Shown here: one piece after another, positions 13,810 to 14,962 of the stretch | How positions within the stretch are numbered: the first letter of the stretch is position 1 | Layout of the letters: every line of letters begins with the position of its first letter | IMG/VR virus record: IMGVR_UViG_3300046820_001232 | Span: 1-22,518 of that record | Reading direction: 5' to 3' (one strand) | DNA: 22,518 bases | DNA from: a virus | Program-made: the position numbers and the translations under genes | Notes under the pieces: model-generated | Seen by the model: the letters and a program-made list of their open reading frames with translations, nothing else | Told to the model about the DNA's origin: nothing | Databases searched by the model: none

Positions 13810-13852
13810 TGAGCAGTCGTCTATAAACTGCTCATTTGTTATAGTTTTTTTT
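13810..13852 (+). terminator. Hairpin with downstream T run, probable hsp20 terminator
   Basis: TGAGCAGT (13810-13817) pairs perfectly with ACTGCTCA (13827-13834) around a 9-nt loop, followed by TTTGTTATAG and eight Ts to 13852. The T run is 10 nt from the stem, so efficiency is uncertain. The right arm contains the stop codon of the leftward methyltransferase gene. Confidence 0.5.
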
Positions 13853-14530
13853 GATATATATTTCATGAAATCCTAATTCATGTAAAACTATACCATCAAC
13901 AGACCAGTTATCGTTAAAGTGTAAAAACTCATTTACGCTATTGTAAGTTCCTATATGTTTCCCATAGTTAATACTATCGTAATTTATGTAAGCAGTTAGA
14001 CCTATAACACCACCAACGCTAACTAGTTTTGAGCAGTGTCGTAAAAGTTTCCTTAGCATAAGTCTTTCTGAATCCATATCAAAAAAAATAAAGTCATACT
14101 CTTTATCTAGAGTAGGAACGATTTCTCTTGCATTCCCAACTATAGTATTTACATTTGGGTGGTAAGAAAATTTATTTTTTATATACTCTTCATGCGTCAT
14201 TGACTCATCATAAGGACGATGTGCCTCTGATTCTAAAATACCAAAAGCATTGTTATACATATCTAAAAGATCTGCACTTCTGGCATTTGTCATATCTATA
14301 AATAATTTGGCCGAAAACCCCCATGCAACACCTATCTCTAGATAAGATATATTTTTATTTAAAGTTTTTGCATAGTCTTTTCTTGAACTAAATAGTTTTG
14401 CATTATTTAATTGATCTTGAGATATAGGGTATGCCTCTTCAATCTCATGATCTTCATATGTTACTTGTTCATCATATTTTAGTGGTGGTATTTGTGTTTT
14501 TTTTGCAGTCCGACCAGATGCATCATTCAT
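13832..14530 (-). CDS. Class I SAM-dependent methyltransferase-like protein
   Basis: A 232-residue protein. The ATG at 14530 is chosen because TATACT ends 6 nt before it; a start at 14587 would lie upstream of that promoter. ISYLEIGVAWGFSAKLFID (from about residue 61) is motif I for SAM binding, DLLDMY follows, and YDFIFFDMDSER and LVSVGGVIGL are the later strands of a Methyltransf_24-type domain. The 120-residue part between motif I and the acidic loop has an insert (AHRPYDESMTHEEYIKNK). Candidate O- or N-methyltransferase; substrate unknown. It stands alone leftwards between rightward genes. Confidence 0.7.
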   Translation of the reverse strand: MNDASGRTAKKTQIPPLKYDEQVTYEDHEIEEAYPISQDQLNNAKLFSSRKDYAKTLNKNISYLEIGVAWGFSAKLFIDMTNARSADLLDMYNNAFGILESEAHRPYDESMTHEEYIKNKFSYHPNVNTIVGNAREIVPTLDKEYDFIFFDMDSERLMLRKLLRHCSKLVSVGGVIGLTAYINYDSINYGKHIGTYNSVNEFLHFNDNWSVDGIVLHELGFHEIYIKKNYNK

Positions 14531-14566: not shown

Positions 14567-14572
14567 TATAAT
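14567..14572 (+). promoter_or_regulatory. -10 box for the structured RNA
   Basis: TATAAT followed by 6 nt and then G14579, the first base of a 10-bp inverted repeat. The spacing equals that of the leaderless genes, so the RNA should begin with the stem. No clear -35. Confidence 0.5.
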
Positions 14573-14578
14573 TGGTAT

Positions 14579-14662
14579 GTCCCACACAGGACCTTAGTGA
14601 TGGATTAGTTACCCATTGGATAGAGACCGTGGCGCAAGTCAGGTGAATTACTTGTGTGGGAC
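14579..14662 (+). ncRNA. Candidate 84-nt structured RNA, family unknown
   Basis: GTCCCACACA (14579-14588) pairs perfectly with TGTGTGGGAC (14653-14662). Inside, ACCT (14591-14594) can pair with AGGT (14641-14644), GATGG (14599-14603) with CCATT (14613-14617), and GAC (14625-14627) with GTC (14638-14640), giving a closed multi-branched fold. A TATAAT ends 6 nt before it, and its end is 15 nt before the -10 of the HNH gene. It is not a tRNA, as there is no T arm. The outer pairing is certain; transcription and the inner helices are inference. Confidence 0.55.
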
Positions 14663-14676
14663 CTAACATTTGGCGG

Positions 14677-14682
14677 TATAAT
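14677..14682 (+). promoter_or_regulatory. -10 box, leaderless HNH start
   Basis: TATAAT with 7 nt to the ATG at 14690. No Shine-Dalgarno site and no good -35 (TTGTGT lies 19 nt upstream). Confidence 0.55.
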
Positions 14683-14689
14683 AATATCA

Positions 14690-14962
14690 ATGACTAACAA
14701 AGAGTTAGAAACCTATAATAAGCAGCAGTATAAGAAAATGCTTGCTAAGATAAAAGAGGATTCTGGCTGTGTAGACTGCGGAATCAATAATCATATTATC
14801 TTAGATTTTGACCACATAAGAGACAAAAAATATAATGTTTCAAGGATGATCCATGATGGATTCTCATGGAAGGCTATCAAAAAAGAGATTGAAAAGTGTG
14901 AGGTAGTATGTGCAAACTGCCATAGAATAAGGACGCATAATAGGCTAAACGGCATGATATAA
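14690..14962 (+). CDS. HNH endonuclease
   Basis: A 90-residue protein with a compact HNH core: C27-x2-C30 (SGCVDCGINNH), LDFDHIRDKK with the catalytic His, and C71-x2-C74 followed by HRIRTHNR (CANCHRIRTHNR). The two cysteine pairs hold a structural zinc. A start at 14654 would lie upstream of the -10, so 14690 is chosen. Small lone HNH proteins in phages act as homing nickases or with terminase; the structured RNA just upstream makes a mobile unit thinkable but unproven. Its end contains the promoter of the next gene. Confidence 0.85.
   Translation: MTNKELETYNKQQYKKMLAKIKEDSGCVDCGINNHIILDFDHIRDKKYNVSRMIHDGFSWKAIKKEIEKCEVVCANCHRIRTHNRLNGMI

Follow-up and report, generated by a model that had tools for sequence, protein, structure and literature searches.

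A structured RNA gene of freshwater viruses with a conserved core complementary to helix 69 of actinobacterial 23S rRNA

Several described systems share one or another feature with the RNA gene analyzed here, which lies in a window of about 22.5 kb comprising positions 1 to 22,518 of the IMG/VR virus record IMGVR_UViG_3300046820_001232. The c4 RNA of phages P1/P7 is likewise a short RNA of phages that needs its fold to function and carries complementary sequence in its loops (PMC12197685). However, c4 pairs with the ant mRNA around the ribosome-binding site, whereas the RNA described here matches 23S rRNA and has no target in the window: complementarity to a nearby phage mRNA start, as is typical of C4 RNAs, was not found there, the best score being 27 to 29, the level of shuffled sequences. 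Likewise, the RNA has no Rfam match to the C4 antisense RNA family (RF01695), which we take to be that of c4. RNAs C and D of phage T4 are small stable RNAs encoded among tRNA genes in a cluster that also holds the homing endonuclease gene segB, with SegB adjoining tRNA-Arg, rnaD, and rnaC; neither rnaC nor rnaD contains the core defined below, and we rejected them as members of the same family. OMEGA RNA/HEARO loci with IscB resemble the present one in placing a structured RNA beside an HNH gene, but their nucleases (IscB/TnpB) combine RuvC and HNH parts, whereas here an HNH protein of 89 to 90 aa lacks a RuvC part and the RNA survives in its absence. To our knowledge, the phage RNAs described so far pair with mRNAs, and the known phage attacks on ribosomes are carried out by proteins. 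Our searches of the open-access literature for a phage or bacterial RNA antisense to helix 69 found none, and rRNA targets receive no mention in a review of phage RNAs from 2025. According to PMC7038079, a synthetic PNA directed against helix 69, and hence against the same rRNA helix, inhibits the growth of E. coli; that molecule is man-made, whereas the RNA described here is natural, evolving, and viral.

The RNA gene, its fold, and its homologs

Positions 14579 to 14662 (+ strand) are confirmed as a real structured-RNA gene with a three-way-junction fold, on the basis of the computed fold, the homologs, and a covariance model match at 14578 to 14663 with 70.5 bits. A -10 box, TATAAT (14567 to 14572, +), is conserved while its flanking sequence is not, and G14579, the first base of the closing helix, lies 6 nt past it; this agrees with the first-pass annotation, which had placed the start of the helix at the predicted transcription start. 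The helix, described there as a perfect 10-bp duplex, is real but longer: P1, both strands of which are defined by covariation, joins GUCCCACACAGG (14579 to 14590, +) to 14651 to 14662 (+) and reaches 12 bp here, with wobbles among the last pairs, and 12 to 13 bp in most relatives. P1 encloses the further helices that had been expected inside it, namely, the hairpins P2 and P3 of the computed fold. P2, UGAUGG[AUUAGUUAC]CCAUUG (14598 to 14618, +), pairs 14598 to 14603 with 14613 to 14618 around a 9-nt loop and belongs to the covariation set, its outermost pair varying on both sides; among the homologs its 5' strand is invariant and its 3' strand drifts. P3, ACC(G)UGGC[GCAA]GUCAGGU (14626 to 14644, +), pairs 14626 to 14633 with 14638 to 14644 around a GCAA loop in the computed fold and takes the form GGC[NNNNGU]GCY in other clades. 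The predicted folding energy of the 84-nt RNA (-30.8 kcal/mol; z = -3.63) was equaled by none of 200 shuffles. Neither ARAGORN nor Rfam detected a tRNA in 14579 to 14662, which bears out the earlier statement that this is not a tRNA, and membership in the tRNA, tmRNA, or tRNA-like classes was rejected. The Rfam scan suggested in the same place matched no family at the gathering cutoffs, and with E values of up to 10 it returned just two snoRNA matches, far under their cutoffs and regarded as noise. Across all our Rfam scans, at either threshold, tRNAs and noise were the only matches.

Homologs were collected by taking the best 80 loci of an IMG/VR scan with the protein of the downstream HNH gene, and the RNA is present upstream of that gene in nearly all 80; those without it are contigs that end there. 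Pattern scans with the RNA itself added further copies. Of this family, hereafter family A, 245 copies with 93 distinct sequences were collected in IMG/VR viral contigs, with P1 paired in all. The copies share ancestry. In the DNA-level alignment, conservation jumps at the -10 box, approaches 100% across the RNA, and exceeds that of most third codon positions (silent sites) of the HNH gene. Compensatory changes in the outer helix, which the first-pass annotation had named as supporting evidence, were found: among 58 diverse copies, 8 of the 12 P1 pairs show two-sided change, with 96.8% of the P1 cells paired. Over the three helices, cells with two-sided change number 99 in the same 58 copies versus 29 in shuffles, and sliding the partner strand by 1 to 3 columns lowers whole-structure pairing to 35 to 52%. 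The covariance model scores true copies at 52 to 95 bits and the next-best matches at 16. Since all 100 wobble cells of P1 read as G.U on the + strand and none as A.C, the + strand is the transcribed one. The -10 box, the fold relative to shuffles, and the covariation thus support the initial proposal of a structured RNA that is predicted to be transcribed from its own promoter.

Of 132 distinct upstream regions, 109 have TATAAT, TACAAT, or a close relative. In one clade (L227, L230, L264, and relatives), the usual -10 region gives way to a conserved GGGAGACAGCGACATTAAATACCTGG, located some 30 nt ahead of the RNA, which is either another promoter or the end of the preceding gene. Many copies end with GGGGC-UUU directly before a new -10 box, and many have no strong terminator after the RNA. 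A pattern scan of bacterial and archaeal genomes from 84,980 species recovered only chance matches without P1, and DNA searches of cultured phages with two family A queries (the window and L238) recovered no relative. The RNA family is one of freshwater viruses infecting actinobacteria, and no Rfam family covers it. Judged from sequence, the RNA is probably an independent small-RNA gene, of about 85 nt, of phages that infect actinobacteria.

The neighboring HNH gene

The RNA is followed by a small HNH endonuclease gene (14690 to 14962, +; phrog_2255 HNH, E = 9e-24), a usual rather than obligate neighbor whose separate -10 box, TATAAT (14677 to 14682, +), was correctly recognized in the first-pass annotation and lies 7 nt before the ATG, so that the gene appears leaderless. 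A Pfam match of its product to Cytochrom_C552 (14693 to 14959) was just over the cutoff and was taken as spurious, given the HNH assignment by PHROGs; it apparently arises from the CxxC/CxxCH motifs of the HNH protein. Further leaderless-looking genes of the window begin at 14527 (-), 14970, 1485, and 12010, each, like the HNH gene at 14690, with a TATAAT-like box 6 to 9 nt before the start. We rejected the idea of a phage using leaderless mRNAs only: the genes beside the RNA look leaderless, but most others have a Shine-Dalgarno-like sequence. The usual gene order is HSP20, the RNA, HNH, and then a gene for an endolysin or for a product of unknown function. Accessory genes collect around the RNA: the window has a methyltransferase gene (13832 to 14527, -) between HSP20 and the RNA, and elsewhere a peroxidase-like or PstS-like gene is inserted (L133, 99 to 855; L221).

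Of the 166 distinct RNA loci whose downstream sequence is long enough, about 156, counted by inspection, have the HNH gene next to the RNA. At least six RNAs have a different next gene and no adjacent HNH gene (L087, L210, L225, L238/L276, L252, and L272), an unrelated 169-aa HNH protein is encoded beside the RNA in L086, and an extra gene separates the RNA from HNH in L133, L221, and L308/L309. Conversely, every HNH relative of at least 64% identity with enough upstream sequence is preceded by the RNA, with an insertion placing it 850 nt upstream in two cases, and those below about 56% identity never have it. Several such distant relatives lie inside tRNA clusters (L321, L322, L325, L326, L327, L336, L338, and L349), two of them 28 nt after tRNA-Asn, and the segB cluster of T4 offers a parallel for HNH relatives settled beside small RNA genes. 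Because the RNA occurs without HNH and HNH relatives occur without the RNA, we regard the RNA as an independent gene and HNH as a settler; the HNH gene is probably only a neighbor, of a kind that settles beside small RNA genes. The OMEGA/HEARO-like link raised in the first-pass annotation was accordingly abandoned: the RNA persists without HNH, the distant HNH relatives lack the RNA, and at this locus we found neither a RuvC part nor a HEARO match. Membership in that class was rejected, as there is no Rfam match, no RuvC-plus-HNH nuclease, and no obligate RNA-nuclease linkage.

A core complementary to helix 69 and its recurrence in other RNAs

The most conserved part of the RNA, ACCUURG...UAGUUACC (14591 to 14613), is the antisense of one site in 23S rRNA. 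Written out, this core reads ACCUURG(G)AUGG-NN-UAGUUACC and runs antisense to helix 69 plus the neighboring strand of helix 71 in actinobacterial 23S rRNA (GGUAACUAUAACCAUCCUAAGGU). In the window it reads ACCUUAGUGAUGGAUUAGUUACC (14591 to 14613, +), with 14591 to 14597 complementary to 23S CUAAGGU and 14606 to 14613 complementary to GGUAACUA; the pattern ACCTTAG-N8-TAGTTACC is found exactly, with the same spacing, in the antisense of Streptomyces 23S rRNA at helix 69, so that the two ends of the 23-nt core, 7 nt and 8 nt long, match exactly and are correctly spaced. The Streptomyces and Arthrobacter records and most actinobacterial matches carry the 23S query stretch exactly, and other bacteria differ. 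In loci picked by the HNH gene alone, the positions that never change are CTT, G, GATG, and TAGTTACC, all within the core, while the unpaired NN and the P2 strand not facing the rRNA vary. As GATG is invariant while its pairing partner drifts, it must be held by something other than P2. Core variants that are wobble compatible, such as ACCUUGGG and UCUUAGG, keep the rRNA pairing.

Helix 69 is the best rRNA-operon site for 24 of 25 distinct core variants, and for three variants 13, 3, and 2 of 30,000 shuffles scored as well; the complementarity was noticed after the fact, and these shuffles cover only part of that freedom. A test of the whole 84-nt RNA for any 7+7 bipartite rRNA match was not significant (7% of shuffles); it was replaced by the test of the conserved core, the one part that is significant. 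The window core scores 40 against actinobacterial rRNA, 30 against E. coli rRNA, and at best 27 to 29 within the window itself on either strand; family A cores in general score 40 to 43 against the actinobacterial helix and 30 to 33 against that of E. coli. A first idea, antisense to 16S rRNA, was discarded, as the best core sites fall at helix 69 of 23S rRNA, and a search for a second rRNA site for the 3' half of the RNA gave no consistent place.

Scans with the core alone retrieved more than 120 stretches per pattern, against a chance expectation that we ourselves estimate at about 20 stretches per scan. Some matches are plainly chance occurrences in coding sequence; the rest are additional copies of family A or fall into four or more further arrangements, so that other RNA scaffolds are included. 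Family B (L407, L421, L443, L455, and L400) has an insertion (an extra GGCAAGG) between P1 and the core; in family C (L391, L426, and L402) the core is followed by an intrinsic terminator; family D (L484, L496, and L371) lies directly before tRNA-Gln, tRNA-Asn, or tRNA-Pro genes; and family E (L412, L415, and L423) lies directly after a tRNA-Ile gene. A whiB gene, a key indicator of actinophages (PMC10202952), is present in 105 family A loci, many family B loci, and one family D locus, and the capsid protein of a family C contig is nearest to those of Streptomyces phages. The cultured Streptomyces phages Bmoc and NootNoot have CTTAGGATGGTTA, with 13 nt of contiguous antisense, between LysM and LamG-type genes at a place syntenic with that of family C; Coruscant and Mildred21 have close variants of it. 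These copies were located by synteny, and their UAGUUACC half is weakened to UUACUG. In these phages, an unannotated intergenic RNA-like stretch consists of GGAAATGAGTCCG..., the core, and a terminator, upstream of a capsid-module gene (MT711976, 24690 to 24828 [Coruscant]; MF155946, 21576 to 21720; MF347636, 21364 to 21512; MT310865, 21744 to 21892).

Targeting of helix 69 by the core would predict another stem in phages whose hosts have an E. coli-type helix. The pattern predicted for such hosts, CTTAGGACCG-N1-2-TAGTTACGG, retrieved nine contigs with four distinct sequences, all of one structured RNA type (family F), whose closing stem covaries (ACACC/GGTGT and ACTCACC/GGTGAGT); one decoy with another self-complementary stem was tried and retrieved no contigs. 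The predicted pattern was the query that retrieved family F, so the match score of this family is not independent; the count, the structure, and the decoy are. The family F loci (L549 to L557) belong to T4-like phages and have the core CTTAGGACCGTTTAGTTACGG followed by the conserved hairpins GGCGGCTGCTGCC and GGAGTCGTGCC. The DNA polymerase beside one of them is nearest to those of Sinorhizobium and Agrobacterium phages, no whiB was seen in these loci, and by gene content these phages resemble alphaproteobacterial phages. DNA searches of cultured phages with L371 (family D), L391 (family C), and family F queries recovered no relative. Predicted duplexes reach -27 to -34 kcal/mol for family A to E cores with Streptomyces and -36 kcal/mol for the family F core with E. 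coli, and those with the nonmatching host type are about 4 to 14 kcal/mol weaker; the correspondence of core stem and helix 69 covers two host types, with hosts assigned from gene content.

Possible function and alternative explanations

The best reading of these data is that the phage RNA pairs with helix 69 of the 50S subunit, an interaction that we consider probable from complementarity and conservation. Helix 69 forms a main bridge to the 30S subunit. It is a drug site in addition to bridging the subunits (PMC12805891), and E. coli stops growing when treated with a PNA directed against it (Kulik et al. 2017, as cited in PMC7038079). Transcription would start at the foot of P1 and yield a compact RNA of about 85 nt, in which P1 would hold up for display an unpaired strand, ACCUURG, and the hairpin P2 with UAGUUAC in its loop. 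Between them, strand and hairpin would serve as antisense to helix 69 and to the helix 71 strand next to it in host 23S rRNA, with P2 matching the helix 69 hairpin as its complement. The likeliest event would be pairing of the RNA with helix 69 of a free 50S subunit, on the face that lies exposed there; a loop-loop contact would come first, and subunit joining might then be hindered or initiation changed. In view of the bridging role of helix 69, the drug site, and the growth arrest by the PNA, interference with subunit joining would be the simplest outcome. That host translation is reduced or redirected during infection is a guess; alternatively, the RNA may shield helix 69 from a host defense. 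Against this reading, a lytic phage needs ribosomes, so that a plain inhibitor is not obviously useful, and full pairing would require the opening of both P2 and helix 69. Tentatively, and with less confidence than in the pairing itself, we suggest that unrelated phages may have repeatedly built small RNAs around a host-tuned anti-helix 69 hairpin that docks on the 50S subunit to control, shield, or shut off host translation. If so, an RNA aimed at a universally conserved, drug-binding helix of the 50S subunit would be a new viral way to control translation, and helix 69 targeting would explain a class of conserved RNA genes outside Rfam. If the pairing is wrong, what still stands is a widespread family of strongly structured RNAs from abundant freshwater phages.

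Less likely is an independent regulatory RNA that uses its conserved loop to bind a protein or to pair with mRNAs of the phage or host; the helix 69 match would then be incidental. Phage RNAs with loop-borne mRNA antisense do exist, as in c4 of P1/P7 (PMC12197685), and our rRNA statistics were computed after the match was seen; however, the window offers no comparable complementarity (27 to 29 versus 40 for rRNA), and this reading would not explain why the core recurs in unrelated scaffolds or why a stem variant matches the host type. The start of the RNA at +1 just upstream of a gene, together with the many copies lacking a strong terminator, would also suit a cis-acting leader (a riboswitch, attenuator, or put-type antitermination element), yet the next gene has its own -10 box and differs between loci, and many copies end in GGGGC-UUU just ahead of a new -10 box, which makes this improbable.

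The remaining alternatives concern the nuclease or the opposite strand. The matched rDNA stretch is a known homing endonuclease site, in the region cut by I-CeuI, and HNH relatives sit among tRNA genes as T4 SegB does beside tRNA-Arg and rnaC/rnaD, so that the locus might be a DNA-level homing or recognition site used by the neighboring nuclease. RNA-level covariation with strand-specific wobbles, the fixed promoter spacing, and the persistence of the RNA without HNH render this slightly more doubtful still than a leader. We give even less credence to a guide-like RNA of the HNH nuclease in the manner of OMEGA/HEARO; the adjacency in most RNA loci and in all close HNH relatives would fit, but RNA and HNH each occur without the other, there is no RuvC part and no variable guide segment, and the core is antisense to rRNA. 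Equally remote is an active minus strand that, by mimicking helix 69, acts as a decoy for proteins that bind the ribosome or modify rRNA: the reverse complement does contain GGTAACTA...CTAAGGT, but the P1 wobbles are all G.U on the + strand, with none on the - strand, and the -10 boxes point to the + strand.
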